Shown here: positions 19,558-30,991 of the stretch, piece after piece
Numbering within the stretch: position 1 is the stretch's first letter
How the letters are laid out: each line of letters opens with the position of its first letter
Origin: an uncultured Erysipelotrichaceae bacterium
GTDB lineage: Bacteria > Bacillota_I > Bacilli_A > Erysipelotrichales > Erysipelotrichaceae
DNA length: 33,660 bases
Direction of reading: 5' to 3'
NCBI GenBank assembly: GCA_944327135.1
Contig: CALVGQ010000066.1
Location: 1-33,660, forward strand
Notes under the pieces: model-generated
The model's input: only the letters and a program-made list of their open reading frames with translations
Database searches by the model: none
What the model was told of the DNA's origin: nothing
Made by a program: the position numbers and the translations under genes

Positions 19558-20238
19558 ATGGCAAAAATTTTGCTTGTTGAAGATGAAGAAAGCATTCGCA
19601 AATTAATCAGCTATGATTTAAAAATGGCTCGTTACGAAGCAGTTTTGTGTGAAGATGGGCAGCAGGCTCTGGAAAAAGGGCTCAATGAAACGTTTGATCT
19701 TATGATCATTGACTGGATGCTTCCGTATCTGAGTGGGATTGATCTGGTTCGACAGTTCCGCCAGAAAGGCATCGATAGTGTCATTATCATGCTGACTGCC
19801 AAAGATGAAGAAGAGGATATTCTGGATGCCTTTGAGGCGGGAGTAGATGATTATGTTACTAAACCGTTTTCCCCGCGGCAGCTGCTTGCCCGAATTCAGG
19901 CTCATATGAAACGGCTTGCTAAGCCTGCGCCGACAGTATTAAAGGTTGCTGATGTAGAGCTGAATCAGACGCAGCGAGAGGTGCGTGTTGCTGGCCAGCC
20001 GATTGAGCTGACGAAGAAGGAATTTGAGCTGCTGGAATATTTAATGCGCAATCCGAAAATGGTTTTGACGCGGGATAACATTTTGAATGAGATATGGGAT
20101 TTTGATTATGATGGAGATACACGGATCGTGGACGTGCATATTTTTAAACTTCGCAGTAAACTTCAGGGCAGCCAAGTGATGATCAAATCCATGCGGGGAG
20201 TTGGTTACTCCTTGGAAATCAATCATGAAAATCACTGA
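19558..20238 (+). CDS. phoP: PhoP/PhoB-like response regulator
   Basis: A 226-residue OmpR/PhoB-family regulator. The receiver domain (1-120) has acidic residues E8/D9, the phosphorylation site D52 in LMIIDWMLP, T81 in MLTAKD and K103 in YVTKPFSP. The C-terminal winged helix (about 128-226) has ELTKKEFELLEYLM, DTRIVDVHI and MRGVGYSL, the usual recognition-helix and wing elements. The assignment to phosphate control rests on context: it pairs with a PhoR-like kinase, sits upstream of pst-phoU, and PhoP-type direct repeats lie before pstS and one Na/Pi gene. An AGAAAGGAG site precedes it inside the phoH end. The kinase gene overlaps its 3' end by 14 bp. Confidence 0.88.
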   Translation: MAKILLVEDEESIRKLISYDLKMARYEAVLCEDGQQALEKGLNETFDLMIIDWMLPYLSGIDLVRQFRQKGIDSVIIMLTAKDEEEDILDAFEAGVDDYVTKPFSPRQLLARIQAHMKRLAKPAPTVLKVADVELNQTQREVRVAGQPIELTKKEFELLEYLMRNPKMVLTRDNILNEIWDFDYDGDTRIVDVHIFKLRSKLQGSQVMIKSMRGVGYSLEINHENH

Positions 20239-21448
20239 TTTTCTGCTTGTTCCGCTGGTGGCTTTTTTGATCCTGCTGTTTTCTTCAACGATTTCCTTTT
20301 CACTGTTTTCAGTGGTGTTGATTCTAACGGCTGCTGCCAGTTATGAATTGTATGTGATTCATCGCCGGTTGACCCAAAATTTTAAGCAACAAGAGCGTTC
20401 TTTTATCAGTAAGCTTGAAGGAACTGCTAAAGATATGCATCTGGTTGAAAGCCAGTTGGAGACAGTTTTTAATAATATTCCTTCCCCTTTGGCTTTATTG
20501 GATACGTATGGGCAGCTGGTTTTAGTTAATCACAGTTTCGACCGATTTCTTAAGGCAGTCCCTTCCAAGCTGCTGGATTATCGGGATGAACTAATTGATC
20601 CGGCAATTCGGCTGTTTTTGAAAGAGTCTTATTTAACAGAGAAGGCCATTGTTCGCAATGTGGATTTTAATGGCATTGATTTTCAGTGTTTGTCAGTGCC
20701 GATTCAGGAAAATAGTCGTTACGCCGGCTGTCTTTTGATTTTTCAGGATATCACTCAGGCGGTAGAAAAAGAACGGATGCAGAAACGTTTTATTGCGGAT
20801 GCTTCCCACGAACTGAAAACACCGATCGCGGCAATCAAAGGAATGATTGAAATTTTAAATCGCCGTGATTTTGATGATGAAGAAGTGATGCGGGATTTTC
20901 ATCTGCAGATTGAAAAAGAGACCCATCGGCTGGAACGAATCGTGAGTGATCTATTACAGCTATCGCGGTTAAGCGCAGGACAAATCCTGCTTCAAAAGGA
21001 AGCGGTTAATGTGACCGAGCTGATTGAGAATGTTATTCATGAAATTCCGATTTCAGAGAAAAAAGGCATCGAGATTCAAGTTCACTCGACGATTCAGTCT
21101 TTGGTCTGGCTGGACCGTGATCGGATCCATCAGGTCATCGGTAATTTATTAAAAAACGCCTGTCTGCATAGTGGTGCAACGGAGGTCATGATTACTGTTT
21201 TTGAATTGGAAAAAGAGATCGAAATACAAATTCATGACAATGGATGCGGAATTAGTGCTACAGATCTTGAACATATATTTGAACGATTTTATCGGGTGGA
21301 TACGCACCGGGCTCGCTCCAGCGGAGGCTCAGGATTAGGTTTGGCGATTGTAAAATCAATTGTCAACGCCCACCATGGTGAGGTAAAGGTACTAAGTGAG
21401 GTGGGGAAAGGAACACAGTTTAACCTGACTTTGCCTAAGGAACAATAA
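20225..21448 (+). CDS. phoR: PhoR-like sensor histidine kinase
   Basis: A 407-residue membrane histidine kinase. Two hydrophobic segments (about 6-22 and 25-42) are separated by only a few residues, so it has practically no extracellular sensor domain. A PAS-like domain follows (about 75-180, NNIPSPLALLDTYGQLVLVN). The dimerisation/phospho-acceptor helix carries ADASHELKTP with H195. The ATPase domain has N-box QVIGNLLKNACLHSG, G1 DNGCGIS, F-box IFERFYRVD and G2 GGSGLGLAIV. The minimal-sensor architecture resembles E. coli PhoR, which reads the Pst-PhoU complex rather than free phosphate. The ATG at 20225 overlaps phoP; its ribosome binding site is weak, suggesting coupling. Confidence 0.87.
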   Translation: MKITDFLLVPLVAFLILLFSSTISFSLFSVVLILTAAASYELYVIHRRLTQNFKQQERSFISKLEGTAKDMHLVESQLETVFNNIPSPLALLDTYGQLVLVNHSFDRFLKAVPSKLLDYRDELIDPAIRLFLKESYLTEKAIVRNVDFNGIDFQCLSVPIQENSRYAGCLLIFQDITQAVEKERMQKRFIADASHELKTPIAAIKGMIEILNRRDFDDEEVMRDFHLQIEKETHRLERIVSDLLQLSRLSAGQILLQKEAVNVTELIENVIHEIPISEKKGIEIQVHSTIQSLVWLDRDRIHQVIGNLLKNACLHSGATEVMITVFELEKEIEIQIHDNGCGISATDLEHIFERFYRVDTHRARSSGGSGLGLAIVKSIVNAHHGEVKVLSEVGKGTQFNLTLPKEQ

Positions 21449-23036: not shown

Positions 23037-23109
23037 CCGTATTTTTTAATGCAGATAAAGAAAAAAAGAAGGTTCTTTTTCTTTTTTTTCATGTCAAAAC
23101 ATTTCCTTT

Positions 23110-23164
23110 TTAACCGGGATTTAACAATGCTTTAACTGACGTTTAATGAAATAAGACTATGATA
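23110..23164 (+). promoter_or_regulatory. PhoP box array and promoter of the pst operon
   Basis: Four hexamers in direct orientation begin at 23110 (TTAACC), 23121 (TTAACA), 23132 (TTAACT) and 23143 (TTAATG), an exact 11-bp period with 5-bp spacers. The last ends 10 bp before a TATGAT -10 (23159-23164), leaving only a poor -35. Tandem TTAACA-like hexamers at 11 bp are the known binding pattern of Bacillus PhoP, where activation compensates for a weak -35. The array precedes pstS and the regulator gene is nearby. Confidence 0.85.
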
Positions 23165-23190
23165 AAGCCTGTAAAACGGAGGAAATGAAA

Positions 23191-24141
23191 ATGAAGAAGT
23201 TAACAGTTTTATGGTTAAGTGCTCTTTTGCTTCTAGCCGGTTGTTCCGGGACATCAGGAAATAACGAAAATCAAAATTCGGTGTCAACCCCTGAGACAAC
23301 GGCGACGATCAATGTTTATACTCGGGATTCTTCCAGCGGAACGCGTGAAGCTTTTGAAAAAGCGGGGGACTTTGAGGGTGCTTTGACTGCTAAAGCAATT
23401 GAAGTGTCTAGCAATGGCGATATGGCAACCAAAGTCGGAACGGATGAAAATGGCATCGGTTATGTTTCTTTAAGCACTGATTTTGCGGCGAACAATGTCA
23501 CTCCCTTGAATTTTGAGGGTGTTGAGCCAAGCGAGGCAACCGTTCTTGATGGATCCTACAAGATGCAGCGTCCATTCTCGTTTGTGACTCGGGCCTCTGG
23601 CGACTTTGACAGCGAAGAGAAAGAACAGCTGGTCGCAGCATTCCTGGATTTTTTACAGAATTCAACAGAGGGCATGCTGGTTGTGGAAAAAGCTGGCGGA
23701 GTTGTTGATAAAACACAAGGAACGCCATGGGAAGAATTGGCGAAGAACCATCCAATCTGCAGCCAGGATAACAGTACGATTACCCTTGCAACGGCCGGAT
23801 CAACGAGCGTAGAAAAAACATTGAAAGCAGCGTTGGAAGCCTTCCAGCCGCTAGCAGGAAACTTCCAGTTTACAATGAATCAAACAGGTTCCGGCGATGG
23901 CTATAAGCGAGTTATGGGCTCAGAAAAAGATGGCGCAAATAAAGCCGATATCGGATTTGCTTCAAGAGAATTCAAAGCCGAAGAGGAAGATGTTACCCAG
24001 GCCATGGCCAGTGGAGTTTATTGCATTGATGCAGTGGTTACGATTGTGAATGCTGCCAATACAGCCGTTACCAATTTGACCCAGGCTCAAGTCAAGTCTA
24101 TTTTTACCGGAGAGATCACAAATTGGGCAGATGTTCAGTAA
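23191..24141 (+). CDS. pstS: phosphate-binding lipoprotein PstS, circularly permuted
   Basis: A 316-residue lipoprotein with lipobox LLAGC (C18) and a Ser/Thr/Asn-rich linker. It captures extracellular phosphate for the Pst transporter. Domain order is unusual. Residues 38-175 match the normal C-terminal half of PstS: VYTRDSSSGTREAF (43-56, phosphate-binding SGTR), NGIGYVSL (88-94) and GSYKMQRPFSF (121-131). Residues 196-316 match the normal N-terminal half: ATAGSTSVEKT (200-210), GSGDGY (233-238), ADIGFASREF (252-261) and FTGEITNW (305-312). This is a circular permutation. All phosphate-contact loops appear present. The ATG at 23191 has better spacing (8 bp from GGAGG) than the in-frame ATG at 23185 (2 bp). 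Confidence 0.9.
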   Translation: MKKLTVLWLSALLLLAGCSGTSGNNENQNSVSTPETTATINVYTRDSSSGTREAFEKAGDFEGALTAKAIEVSSNGDMATKVGTDENGIGYVSLSTDFAANNVTPLNFEGVEPSEATVLDGSYKMQRPFSFVTRASGDFDSEEKEQLVAAFLDFLQNSTEGMLVVEKAGGVVDKTQGTPWEELAKNHPICSQDNSTITLATAGSTSVEKTLKAALEAFQPLAGNFQFTMNQTGSGDGYKRVMGSEKDGANKADIGFASREFKAEEEDVTQAMASGVYCIDAVVTIVNAANTAVTNLTQAQVKSIFTGEITNWADVQ

Positions 24142-24170: not shown

Positions 24171-24195
24171 AGCCTAGGGGCTAGGCTCTTATTTT
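24171..24195 (+). terminator. hairpin between pstS and pstC, attenuator-like
   Basis: AGCCTAG-GGG-CTAGGCT (24171-24187) is a perfect 7-bp stem followed by CTTATTTT, a weak T-run. It lies between pstS and pstC (69-bp gap), where partial termination or 3'-end protection would raise PstS over the permease subunits. Confidence 0.6.
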
Positions 24196-24210: not shown

Positions 24211-25152
24211 ATGGAAACCTCGCTTCGACATCAGCGTAATGCAGAAAAGCTAAAAAGAAAAATGCGGATCGATAAAGCATTTAAATACTTGTTTTTTTTA
24301 GCGGCCCTGCTTTCTGGAAGCTGTATTTTGCTGATTGTCTTGTTTATCTTGATCAAGGGCATACAGCCGTTTTTGCCAGGCTATCGTTATGGACAAATGG
24401 ATTTGCTTCAATTTTTATTTGGAACGATGTGGCGGCAGGATCAGGCTGTGTATGGAGTTGGATATATTGTCATCAATACTCTGATCAGCGCTTTTGGGGC
24501 TTTACTGTTGTCTTTTCCAATTTCGGTATTGACAGCGTTGTTTATTGCCAAAATCGCTCCAAGAAAATTGAGCGCGATGCTTAGCACCGTCGTTGAATTG
24601 CTGGCATCCATTCCTAGCGTGGTTTATGGGGTTTTTGCTGCTGGGATGATTGTAAAACTGGTCAAATGGCTGGCTTCCTTATGGGGGATCAGTACGGCTG
24701 GAGGGAGTTCTTTACTAGCAGTCATTCTGCTTTTAGCGATCATGATCTTTCCGACTATCACCTCCATGGCGGTCACGGCTATTCAAGCTGTGGATCATGA
24801 ACTGGAGCTTGGTTCCTTGGCTCTGGGAGCAACCAAAACGCAGACAAATTTTAAGGTAGTTTTGAAGTCGGCAAAATCCGGAATTTTTGCTGGCGCAATT
24901 CTGGGATTAGGACGGGCATTTGGGGAAGCAACTGCCGTCAGCATGGTTGCCGGAAACAAATTGTTTGGCCCTACTTTTGATTTGTTCGATATCACGCGCA
25001 CATTGACCTCAACCATGTTGGCGGGACTAAAAGAGACAACGGGGTTGGATTATGATATTCGGTTTTCTGTCGGAATTGTTCTAATGGCCGTGATTTTGGT
25101 TTCGAATTTGATCTTGAATGCAGTAAAAGAGAAAGTGGGGAATCATGGATGA
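24211..25152 (+). CDS. pstC: phosphate ABC transporter permease PstC
   Basis: A 313-residue permease of the Pst phosphate importer. A basic N-terminal tail (RHQRNAEKLKRKMR) precedes six expected helices. ELLASIPSVVYGVF is the PstC/PstA signature, and the cytoplasmic EAA-like loop with LGLGRAFGEATAVSMVAG contacts the PstB ATPase. LELGSLALGATKTQTNFKVVL leads into that loop. Length is normal. An AAAGGAG site precedes the start. The stop overlaps the pstA start by 4 bp (ATGA). Confidence 0.95.
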   Translation: METSLRHQRNAEKLKRKMRIDKAFKYLFFLAALLSGSCILLIVLFILIKGIQPFLPGYRYGQMDLLQFLFGTMWRQDQAVYGVGYIVINTLISAFGALLLSFPISVLTALFIAKIAPRKLSAMLSTVVELLASIPSVVYGVFAAGMIVKLVKWLASLWGISTAGGSSLLAVILLLAIMIFPTITSMAVTAIQAVDHELELGSLALGATKTQTNFKVVLKSAKSGIFAGAILGLGRAFGEATAVSMVAGNKLFGPTFDLFDITRTLTSTMLAGLKETTGLDYDIRFSVGIVLMAVILVSNLILNAVKEKVGNHG

Positions 25153-26390
25153 ATGTCACAAAGAAACAGCAAAGGCAGCGCACTCTAAAGGATGCTTTTC
25201 TAAATGGGTTGACCGCTTTTTCGAGCATGCTTTCCGTTTTAGTGTTAACGATTTTGCTGGGCTATGTTTTTTCGAAGGGAATAGGATTGGTCAATGTGGA
25301 TCTTTTAAGAAATCAATATTGGTCAAAAAGCGCAATCGTTGCCGTTGAGGAAGGAACACAAAGCGGAACCTTTGAACGGCCAGAAGATTTGCCAAAGGAG
25401 GCGGTCTGGAGTGAAAAATGGGGAATTGCTTTGATAGATGCTGTTTCTCATGAAAAACAAGCCCTTGTCTTGGTTGAACGAGTTGATGAGAATTCTGTTT
25501 TTGCTGCCACTGTTGATACCAGTGCTGGGCCTAATCAAGGGAAAAGCTATCCAGTAGTTCCTGGATTGCAGGTTCAAAAAATCGATTTTACAGACCAGCA
25601 AGGGAATGCTAATTTTACTGGAATGCTGGCTTCAGAAACGGCCGAGGAAATGGTTCATGCTTTGGATCAGGCGGTTTCGATCCGATCCGTATTTATAAAA
25701 ACGCCAGGAGGAGGAATACGCGGTTCTTTAATTGCGACGTTATATTTAATTTTTGTTTCTTTGCTGTTTGCCTTGCCAATCGGAGTAGCTAGTGCTGTGT
25801 ATCTGAATGAGATTGCAAAGAAAAATCGTTTTAATGGCTTGATTCGATCTGGAATAGAAACCTTGACTGGTGTTCCATCGATTGTTTATGGCTTGATGGG
25901 AGTCAGTGTTCTGTTTCCTATCACTGCGGCTTTCGGTGCTACAACGACCAATATTCTGCTTGGTTCATTGACTCTGGCTATCATTTTGCTTCCAACGATC
26001 ATTCGTTCCACAGAAGAAGCTTTGCTGGTTGTTCCGCAGAGCCTTCGAGATGCTTCTTTATCCTTGGGGGCCAGTGAAACCCAGACGATTTTCAAAATTA
26101 CGCTTCCTTGTGCGATCCCAGGAATTTTGACGGGGGTTTTGCTTTCGATTGGACGGATTATTGGCGAGTCCGCTGCGTTGATCTATACGATGGGAACGTT
26201 CATTAATGACAGTCCGAGCCTGCTGAGTCAGGGCACTTCTTTAGCAGTTCATATCTGGTCTGTAATGTCTGGTGAACAGCCTAATTTTGAATTGGCTTGT
26301 GCAATTTCAATTTTGATTCTGGTTTTTGTCTTGATTTTGAATCTTACAGTTAAACTTATCAGTCGACGTTTGAATAAAGCCTGGTATTAG
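25149..26390 (+). CDS. pstA: phosphate ABC transporter permease PstA with large extracellular insertion
   Basis: A 413-residue permease, well above the usual 280-300. The transport core (about 185-410) is typical: [36 protein letters not shown] and the ATPase-contact loop with [17 protein letters not shown]. The N-terminal helix (about 22-43) is followed by roughly 120-140 extra residues (about 50-183), including a charged, glycine-rich segment ([29 protein letters not shown]), before the second helix at about 192-214. By topology this piece lies outside the membrane, on the PstS side. It has no Cys and no recognised domain. The start overlaps the pstC stop by 4 bp; pstB follows after 8 bp. 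Confidence 0.92.
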
Positions 26391-26398
26391 GAGGAAAT

Positions 26399-27154
26399 AT
26401 GGAAAATTGTTTTGAAATAGAAAATTTAAATTTATATTACGGAGAGAAACAGGCATTAAAAAATTTGAACCTTTCAATTCGGAAAAATTGCGTAACGGCT
26501 TTGATTGGCCCAAGCGGCTGCGGTAAATCAACATTTCTTCGCTGTCTGAATCGAATGAATGATCTAATTGAAGGTTGTCGGATCGAAGGGAAAATCATGA
26601 TTCAGGGAGTAGATATTTATGACCCTAAGACCAATGTCGTGGATTTAAGAACTAAAGTAGGAATGGTTTTTCAGCGTCCTAATCCGTTTCCCATGTCAAT
26701 TTTTGAAAATGTAGCGTATGGTCCGCGCTGCCAGGGAATTAAAGATCGTCGGATTTTGAAAGAAATCGTTGAGAATTCGTTAAAACAGGCGGCTCTGTAT
26801 GAGGAGGTTCATGATCGCCTGCATGAATCAGCGATGGGCCTTTCCGGTGGACAGCAGCAGCGACTTTGTATTGCACGGGCGATTGCGATGGAGCCGGAAG
26901 TGATTTTGATGGATGAGCCCACTAGCGCCTTGGACCCGATTGCAACCTCAAAAATTGAAGAGTTGATTGAAGAATTGAAAAAAAGCTATTCCATTATCAT
27001 TGTTACTCATTCTATGCAGCAAGCTTCCCGCGTTTCGGATGATACCGCTTTTTTCCTGTTGGGAGAGATCGTTGAAATGGATACGACCCGAATGATTTTC
27101 AATCAGCCAAAGGATAAAAGAACGGAAGATTACATTACAGGTCGATTTGGATAA
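26399..27154 (+). CDS. pstB: phosphate ABC transporter ATP-binding protein PstB
   Basis: A 251-residue ATPase energising phosphate import. Walker [10 protein letters not shown] is at 37-45; Q-loop in [20 protein letters not shown], diagnostic of PstB; signature LSGGQQQR; Walker [15 protein letters not shown]-loop VTHS. The tail has the VEMDTT...[18 protein letters not shown] ending shared by PstB proteins. A TAGGAGG site precedes the start. It is followed after 14 bp by phoU. Confidence 0.97.
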
Positions 27155-27168
27155 AAGGAGGAAAACGT

Positions 27169-27810
27169 ATGGTAAAATTGGATGAAACCTTGTCTCTGTT
27201 TCAGGATCTGATTCAGGAAATGGCTCGAAAAGTTCGCAGCATGCATTGTCTTGCTATGCAAATTATGGAAAGCGGAGATAAGGAAAAGGCACTACAGCTT
27301 ATTCAATTGGATGAATTTGTCAATCGTTATGAAGAGGAAATCAATGATCGGGCACAGGATGTTTTGGCTTTGCTTTCTCCAGTAGCCACGGATCTGCGCA
27401 TCGTGATTGCGGGGATCAAAACTGCCAGTGATTTGGAACGTATTGCAGATTATGCAAAAAATATCGCTCGATATGTGATTAAAAATGGCCCAGTCGCCCC
27501 TTGTATCCGCCCAATTGCTCAACAGATCGGTGAGAGCTTTTTAGCTATGTTTGATCATACAATAGAGGCATATCAAGCGCGGGATGTTAAAAAAGCATTT
27601 CAGATTCCAGAAGAGGATGAGGTCATCAACCGTTTGTTAGAGGAAGTCCATGCTATTTTAAAAGAAGCACTGAAAAATCAGAAAATTGACGACAGCATTA
27701 TCCCTACGGTCGGATTGCTGCGCAATTTGGAGCGCGCTGGAGATCATACCAAAAATATTTGTGAACATCTGATTTATCAGGAAAAAGGTCAGCATATTGA
27801 CTTTGATTAA
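27169..27810 (+). CDS. phoU: PhoU phosphate-signalling protein
   Basis: A 213-residue all-helical protein made of two PhoU repeats. The first has a metal-binding style ER-x-x-D-Y-AKNI-A segment (ASDLERIADYAKNIARY), the second a similar NLERAGDHTKNICE near the end, both hallmarks of PhoU. It links Pst status to the PhoR-type kinase, repressing the regulon when phosphate is plentiful. An AAAGGAGG site lies 6-7 bp before the start. It is the last gene of the pstSCAB-phoU operon, ended by the hairpin at 27853-27880. Homologous domains also form the C-termini of the two Na/Pi transporters in this window. Confidence 0.95.
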   Translation: MVKLDETLSLFQDLIQEMARKVRSMHCLAMQIMESGDKEKALQLIQLDEFVNRYEEEINDRAQDVLALLSPVATDLRIVIAGIKTASDLERIADYAKNIARYVIKNGPVAPCIRPIAQQIGESFLAMFDHTIEAYQARDVKKAFQIPEEDEVINRLLEEVHAILKEALKNQKIDDSIIPTVGLLRNLERAGDHTKNICEHLIYQEKGQHIDFD

Positions 27811-29258: not shown

Positions 29259-30917
29259 TTAGTGGGTGGAAACCTCATTGCCATTCCCTGCCTCAACAGC
29301 ACATTTGGCAATATTGCAGGTATGATCACCCATTCGTTCCAAATTTCCTAAGATGTCACAATAGACCGATCCTCCAATTACAGTTGTACATTCCTGTTTG
29401 GCCATCCGTTCAAAGTGTTTCTGACGCGCTTTGTATTCCAGTAAATCCATGTAATTCTCATCTTCCATCAAAGAAGAATAGAGGGAATAGTCACGGTGCT
29501 CATAAATTTGAATGGAACGGTGCAACATATGTTTAAATAATTCAAACATTTGAAGAACATCTTCCTGAGCGTCTTTGGAAAATTCTGAACGTTCTTCATG
29601 GACCATTTCAAAAAACTCAACAAGATTGATGGTCAGATCTCCGATTCGTTCCAGATTTTTGATGATTTGAAGATGAAGATTGAGTTCTGCCATTTCATGA
29701 TCAGAAAGCGGCTCTTTGGAGATGACCATCAGATAATCCGTGATTTTTTTATCTAAATTGTTGATTAAGGATTCAGTTTGCAAAATGATCTCCTTGTCTT
29801 CAGCATCTCCTTTTTCAACAAAGAAGGTTCTTGCTTCATTGACGATCTGATCTGCAGCTTCTGACATTTTTACCACAGCTCGCTGAGCAATATCCAAAGC
29901 GGAAGATGGCAGCTGGTGGGCAATCTTTTCGTCCAGGTCGTCTATCTTGACATCCACTCGTTCAGGTTCTTCACCTGGAATGATTTTTTTAACAAGCTGG
30001 CACATCTGTTTTAAAAATGGGAAAAAGAGAATGGTTGCGGCTACATTGAAAAGAATATGGGCCACGGCAATCTGCATCATAGGAGTGATATGGAGCAGTT
30101 TCGAGAGCCATTCGATCAGCATAATGTAAGGAACCAAAAGCAGCATCGCGATGATGGTTCCGACAACGTTAAATAAAGTGTGCAGTCCAGCGGTGCGCTT
30201 TGCTGCAAGACTTCCGCCGATGGCGGCAAAAACACCGGTAATGGTTGTTCCAATGTTGGAACCGAAAACAAAAGGTAACGCAGCGGATAAATTCATAGCA
30301 CCAGCTTCATACAGCTTTTGAACAACGCCAATCGTAGCAGCGGATCCTTGAATTAGTCCGGTTAAAAGCGTTCCGGCAAGCAGGGCAAGCAGCGGCTGTC
30401 TTCCCATGACTTCTGCAAATTCAATGAATTCTGGAAGATCCTTCAGCATTTTAAGTGAATCGCCCATGATTCTTAATCCATAAAACAGCAGGCCAAACCC
30501 TAAAATAATTTCTCCTAAGTAACGGGTTCGTTTTCGCTTGGCGAAGGAAATGATTAAGCCTCCGACAAAGACAAAGTATAGAGCAAATTGTTCCACTTTC
30601 AGACCAATCAAAAATGCAGTAACGGTTGTTCCAATGTTGGCGCCCATGACGATTCCGGCTGCCTGTTCCAGCTTCATTAATCCGGCGCGTACCAGTCCGA
30701 TCGTAATTGCGGTGGTTGCTGAGCTGGATTGAATCATGATGGTGACTACCGCTCCAATTAGAACCGCCATGATTGGACGGGAGGTATATTTGTCAATATA
30801 GTCGCGCAATTTATCGCCGGCGACGCTTTTCAGTCCATCTCCCATGAATTTTATTCCAAACAAAAATAGACCAAAACCGCCGAGAATCATATCCCATTGA
30901 ATGTCTTGTAAAGTCAT
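29259..30917 (-). CDS. Na/Pi cotransporter with PhoU-like tail, PhoP-box promoter
   Basis: A 552-residue type II sodium-phosphate cotransporter (NptA/YjbB-like). The membrane part (about 1-330) has two inverted repeats with QSSSATT and a second QGSAATI motif, the Q-S-S-type sodium/phosphate site, plus GANIGTT and GSNIGTTITG. The cytosolic tail (about 340-552) is a PhoU-like helical domain with IKNLERIGDLTINLVEFFE and LGNLERMGDHTCNIAKC. Uptake or efflux direction is not clear from sequence. The ATG at 30917 follows GAGGAGGG. An extended frame to 30959 was rejected because it has no binding site and covers a promoter. It is closely related to the neighbouring gene but separated from it by a terminator. 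Confidence 0.92.
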   Translation of the reverse strand: MTLQDIQWDMILGGFGLFLFGIKFMGDGLKSVAGDKLRDYIDKYTSRPIMAVLIGAVVTIMIQSSSATTAITIGLVRAGLMKLEQAAGIVMGANIGTTVTAFLIGLKVEQFALYFVFVGGLIISFAKRKRTRYLGEIILGFGLLFYGLRIMGDSLKMLKDLPEFIEFAEVMGRQPLLALLAGTLLTGLIQGSAATIGVVQKLYEAGAMNLSAALPFVFGSNIGTTITGVFAAIGGSLAAKRTAGLHTLFNVVGTIIAMLLLVPYIMLIEWLSKLLHITPMMQIAVAHILFNVAATILFFPFLKQMCQLVKKIIPGEEPERVDVKIDDLDEKIAHQLPSSALDIAQRAVVKMSEAADQIVNEARTFFVEKGDAEDKEIILQTESLINNLDKKITDYLMVISKEPLSDHEMAELNLHLQIIKNLERIGDLTINLVEFFEMVHEERSEFSKDAQEDVLQMFELFKHMLHRSIQIYEHRDYSLYSSLMEDENYMDLLEYKARQKHFERMAKQECTTVIGGSVYCDILGNLERMGDHTCNIAKCAVEAGNGNEVSTH

Positions 30918-30936
30918 ATAATCCCTCCTCTTTGTT

Positions 30937-30991
30937 AAGATATCAGAAATAAAATGCAAGAAATGTTAAATTTCTGTTAATTTCCTGATAA
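30937..30991 (-). promoter_or_regulatory. PhoP box array and promoter of the downstream Na/Pi gene
   Basis: Reading the minus strand: TTATCA (30991-30986), TTAACA (30980-30975), TTAACA (30969-30964) and a degenerate TGCATT (30958-30953), again an exact 11-bp period. The last ends 10 bp before TATCTT (30942-30937), the same geometry as at pstS. The start codon is only about 20 bp from the -10, so the leader would be very short. Confidence 0.78.

Follow-up and report, generated by a model that had tools for sequence, protein, structure and literature searches.

A predicted circularly permuted PstS in an Erysipelotrichaceae pst operon and the varied domain orders of its relatives

The window, a stretch of 33,660 nucleotides from an uncultured Erysipelotrichaceae bacterium, contains an intact pst operon in the order pstS-pstC-pstA-pstB-phoU, whose first gene, located below a Pho-box array, encodes a phosphate-binding protein with its two half-domains in reverse order (Table 1). 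Very probably this is a genuine permuted PstS working in the ordinary way. The permuted topology was already solved in 2012 in the structure 4H1X (S. pneumoniae PstS2/SP_2084), of which the original prediction was unaware, and the set of topologies found among the relatives is a more interesting result than the window protein itself.

The pstS frame encodes 318 amino acids from its first ATG and 316 from the ATG at 23191, the latter being the preferred start because of the GGAGG at 23178-23182. Both PBP_like_2/PstS half-domains are present within this single chain, and the swapped block order, first proposed from the letters alone, is borne out by Pfam, TIGR02136 and PDB sequence matches. Positions 8-125 of the Pfam PBP_like_2 profile correspond to residues 198-316 (E 7.7e-27 overall), while its positions 121-264 correspond to the preceding DNA at 23266-23658, i.e., the profile order is swapped. 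Positions 35-155 of NCBIfam TIGR02136 fall on residues 195-317; the score of 144.2, reached in two stretches, is below the curated cut-off of 206.6, which is probably a consequence of the permutation. In the PDB sequence comparison, the classical PstS of C. perfringens (4gd5, 4q8r) aligned in two blocks of swapped order, and 4h1x aligned collinearly over residues 36-316. The canonical N-then-C order is not found in this protein: it is permuted, not classical. All four anion loops (RD..SGTR at 47-54, GSTS at 205-208, TGSG at 234-237 and ASR at 259-261) were found, as had been claimed for the contact loops, and the key residues R47, S51, G52, T53, G205, S206, S208, G235, S236, S260 and R261 are invariant in a 57-row alignment. 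No classical PstS half was found upstream of the gene, where a divergent transporter gene precedes the Pho-box array, nor in the 69 bases separating pstS from pstC, and the window PstS is the genome's only protein above the PBP_like_2 cut-off.

Table 1. Features of the pst operon in the window (positions are those of the whole stretch).
Feature	Position	Strand	Evidence or remark
Pho-box array, four TTTAA(C) repeats with 11-base period	23109..23146	+	exact match, expected 0.00 in shuffles
Ribosome-binding site GGAGG	23178..23182	+	sequence; 8 bases 5' of ATG 23191
pstS, circularly permuted	23185..24141	+	ORF, profile and model evidence; likely start 23191
Lipobox LAGC, lipidated Cys20 (318-aa numbering)	23233..23244	+	sequence; sub-threshold LPAM_1 match
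PstS C-block, residues 38-175, in first place	23296..23709	+	PDB-sequence, profile and structure matches
Permutation linker, residues 176-195, old C-terminus to old N-terminus, conserved Trp182	23710..23769	+	
PstS N-block, residues 196-317, in last place	23770..24135	+	profile and PDB-sequence matches
Perfect 7-bp hairpin followed by T-rich run in the pstS-pstC gap, terminator/attenuator-like	24171..24187	+	sequence
pstC	24211..25152	+	TIGR02138 above cut-off
pstA with extra extracytoplasmic insert	25149..26390	+	TIGR00974 above cut-off; E. coli PstA 9k3s, Z 26.9
PstA insert, residues ~61-185, between membrane helices 1 and 2	25329..25703	+	confident AlphaFold2 model
pstB	26399..27154	+	ABC_tran
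phoU	27169..27810	+	PhoU profile, two stretches

The AlphaFold2 model of the window PstS, calculated with the 57-row alignment, had a pLDDT of 91.8 overall and about 97 in the mature part. It is a single, confident two-lobed structure, in agreement with the expectation that one type II binding-protein fold is kept despite the permutation. The model superposes end to end on 4H1X (Z 30.2, 249 residues, 1.7 A), whereas its matches to the classical structures 4gd5, 4q8r and 1twy cover about 130 residues each, i.e., one half (Z about 11). A full-length match to 4H1X combined with half-only classical matches is characteristic of circular permutation, and according to the model the window PstS is such a permutant, with the 4H1X topology. 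From the model secondary structure and the standard topology of type II binding proteins, the two lobe-crossing strands were located at about 128-135 and 276-289, both internal. The predicted cut splits lobe 2 midway, with FTGEITNW on one side and INVYTRD on the other, so that the earlier placement of the termini at a hinge crossing is wrong. Since the new ends open inside lobe 2, the lipid anchor would be shifted to lobe 2 from its lobe 1 position in classical PstS; the lobe that would face the membrane is read from the topology.

In the proposed mechanism, the old C- and N-termini, which are close together on lobe 1, would be bridged by about 20-25 linker residues, and the new ends would have been opened between the ITNW loop and the strand preceding the SGTR loop. 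The chain would still adopt the usual two-lobed trap architecture, complete with its four anion loops, and deliver phosphate to PstC/PstA while tethered via lobe 2; phosphate binding, docking and the tether geometry are what we infer for the window protein.

The permuted order, recognized as one collinear match, was present in 51 of the 96 genomes of the window's family. The classical order (two swapped matches) was seen in about 18 of the 96, with a few genomes having both. Permuted PstS was also found across many other families of the class, and a phylum-level search gave further cases, all from the same class. Relatives identified by name belong to Holdemania, Longicatena, Anaerorhabdus and Erysipelothrix, and others came from MAGs of Acholeplasmatales, Izemoplasmatales and Haloplasmataceae. 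The lineage trait surmised for gut Firmicutes is thus real and extends beyond them. Two Clostridiaceae records (L137, L138) have a permuted PstS placed among Erysipelothrix-like sequences, which suggests either gene transfer or misnamed bins. In another record (L101), the last part of a permuted PstS runs into a histidine-kinase-like sequence, and this join is likely a misassembly or a frameshift.

Such a distribution bears on the question of whether the permuted order might be an artefact, either of an assembly error or of two tandem pstS genes, broken or out of frame, that were taken for a single gene. Tandem classical pstS genes do occur within the class (L073, L070), but the window frame is intact, with lipobox, ribosome-binding site and Pho boxes, its flanks are free of remnant halves, and the same order is found in dozens of independent genomes and in the 4H1X crystal structure, which leaves this explanation with a negligible probability. 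Chance, frameshift and assembly error were ruled out as the source of the swapped order because it recurs in those 51 family genomes. A domain-swapped dimer, in which every site combines the C block from one chain with the N block from its partner, is sterically conceivable as an alternative pairing, the internal N-C joint of the (C-N)n proteins described below being 6-21 residues long and near the classical 3-6. It is nevertheless improbable, given that a linker of about 20 residues connects termini lying side by side in classical PstS and that the confident monomer model matches a single 4H1X chain over its whole length. Finally, the function of the window PstS is assigned from homology and operon context only, and the protein might bind another oxyanion or act in signalling instead of feeding phosphate to PstC/PstA; with every PstS anion loop retained, pstC, pstA, pstB and phoU downstream and Pho boxes upstream, this is very improbable.

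Permuted modules fused in frame were found in several relatives: two modules (593-678 aa) in L065/L105, L066, L067, L068/L115, L069/L118 and L109, and three (910-990 aa) in L064/L097 and L128. The modules of the same protein have a DNA identity of 81-98%. Because the L066 pair is 16% diverged and located on a single contig of 1.88 Mb, not every tandem PstS is an assembly repeat. Moreover, counting only the starred branches of the tree, the tandem label must have changed at least six times, which means repeated gain or loss of the tandem form. In the complete genome of strain zrk7 (CP076021.1, L107), a tandem permuted pstS is frameshifted into 123 aa and 497 aa, a candidate sequencing error or sign of decay.

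Four sequences (L150, L152, L154 and L155) have the canonical N-C order and are nested deep inside the permuted clade. Constraining all N-C rows into one group made the tree 187 log units worse (AU p = 1.9e-13); with the no-reversal tree rejected, reversal to the canonical order took place within the permuted clade. All four end in a Trp-bearing tail of 26-27 residues, and this tail matches the permutation linkers found in their relatives. This Trp was present in 109 of 112 near-clade permuted linkers, but in none of the 21 distant permuted linkers and none of the 21 classical tails, and the C-terminal tails of classical PstS are 3-11 residues long and lack Trp. The N-to-C joint of the revertants has 9-13 residues, compared to 6-21 between tandem modules and 3-6 in classical proteins. 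The most plausible reading of these revertants is that a C-N-C-N fusion was trimmed to give them. A further variant, L071 (reverse strand, 315 aa), consists of a lipobox, the C-tail helix, the N half and a C head ending in RPFMFVTRY. Its ORF lies directly 5' of pstC, only a few bases apart, in the same genus as the L066 dimer, and it has a third PstS block order, cut at the second crossing.

The tree in which all permuted rows, 4H1X included, were constrained into one group was not rejected (p 0.80) and surpassed the free quick tree by 27 log units; the nested revertants were counted on the permuted side, and the tree is a quick one whose free search missed a better topology. A single origin of the permuted order is likely. 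Several independent origins (in the near clade, the 4H1X-like group and the L072/L079 group) might be considered, as the free quick tree put distant permuted rows among classical rows and the linkers are unlike, with about 15 residues and no Trp versus about 25 with Trp. The better score of the constrained tree and a cut point identical in all permuted groups make repeated origin rather unlikely.

As for the route to the permuted order, circular permutation by duplication is a model that calls for working intermediates, both fused and partly trimmed (PMC3320104); the relatives fit it with their C-N repeats, their reverted forms and L071. A fused tandem N-C-N-C gene would have lost its outer halves to give a C-N pstS. 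None of the genomes searched had the N-C-N-C fusion required for this first step; their fusions were C-N repeats only. Duplication is the most likely origin of the permuted layout, and fission-fusion may have been the route of the first permutation. The relatives would still be reshuffling, as represented by (C-N)2 and (C-N)3 fusions, four N-C trimmed forms and one third-point cut. Overall, we lean towards a view in which the PstS topology of this Bacilli clade is in flux: (C-N)n hub genes would give rise to single genes with new termini, including those with reversed order (L150, L152, L154, L155) and the third order of L071, and each lipoprotein of two or three modules would serve a single importer as a multi-headed phosphate trap, the PstA of that importer having an extra docking domain.

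The AlphaFold2 model of the window PstA (pLDDT 93.7) matches E. coli PstA (9k3s, Z 26.9) except for about 120 residues inserted behind the first membrane helix; the structure-search matches are those of the membrane domain and do not cover the insert. In near-clade operons, the reverted ones included, PstA read as a whole frame has 368-547 aa, mostly around 400, the split pstA frame of L136 being outside this range. In comparison, PstA from operons with classical PstS has 271-297 aa and no insert, and the same is true for the operons with 4H1X-like PstS L181 and L182 (288-294 aa), while that of the L079/L183 operon has 389 aa. The insert was rejected as a cause of the permutation because PstA is short next to the permuted PstS of L181 and L182 and remains long in the reverted N-C operons; it tracks lineage, not the permutation itself. 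Its strand/helix order is suggestive of PDZ and one homologue matches PDZ_2 (E 0.021), while profile searches of the PDB and other libraries gave no reliable family match. The periplasmic loop domain of MalF is a docking domain for the maltose-binding protein, and by analogy the PstA insert may be one as well. As first proposed from the sequence, docking of the permuted PstS to PstC/PstA may differ from the classical case, and the PstA of this clade does have the additional insert. A search for literature on E. coli PstSCAB docking found none.

The Pho-box pattern above pstS had no match in 100 shuffles. A PhoB/PhoR-like response regulator and histidine kinase are encoded 5' of the operon at 19558-21448, consistent with the Pho boxes at 23109-23146. 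The hairpin behind pstS is placed as if for a yield of PstS above that of the permease. On the reverse strand, 29259-30959 encodes a Na/Pi-cotransporter-like protein with a PhoU-like C-terminal part, putatively another phosphate system close to the pst genes; this product and the regulator pair were recognized from their ORF sequences only.

Among known systems, 4H1X shares the permuted block order and the full-length fold with the window PstS but has only about 28-31% identity to it and a shorter linker without Trp. No papers commenting on the permutation of PstS, 4H1X or SP_2084 were found in a search that covered few subscription journals. Classical PstS (4GD5/4Q8R of C. perfringens; TIGR02136; PF12849) has the same half-domains, anion loops and operon partners, but with the halves in the opposite order. 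The glycine-betaine-binding OpuAC (2B4L) is reported to be circularly permuted relative to ProX and to molybdate-binding proteins (PMC2395249) and is collinear with the window PstS model over 227 residues (Z 10.1, 4.7 A), albeit with another ligand family and about 14% identity. TpMglB-2/Tp0684, described as "Type Ic", is a tethered ABC binding lipoprotein with a natural circular permutation that also occurs in Gram-positive gut bacteria and retains ligand binding (PMC4990184); it differs in its Type I fold, glucose ligand and cut point. Since natural permutants of ABC binding proteins are already known, permuted PstS is of a known kind, with 4H1X as its solved example. The tandem relatives resemble GlnPQ and OpuA in having multiple binding domains, which are reportedly fused with several per polypeptide or transporter (PMC8025302, PMC11065425); those domains are joined to the membrane subunit, whereas the near-identical modules of a tandem PstS make up a lipoprotein of their own.

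Within the literature searched, the PstS permutation as a large clade, its tandem forms, the reversal and the third topology are new. For annotation, the permuted PstS of the window is a warning, since it is overlooked when a cut-off like the one curated for TIGR02136 is applied. Circular permutation is usually deduced from two end states only, while here one gene of the pst operon exists in canonical, permuted, tandem, reverted and re-cut forms among related bacteria; the duplication route would therefore be traceable via living intermediates and open to experiment. The same set of forms offers a natural experiment for ABC importers, in which the influence, if any, of the tether point and of the number of binding modules could be seen.
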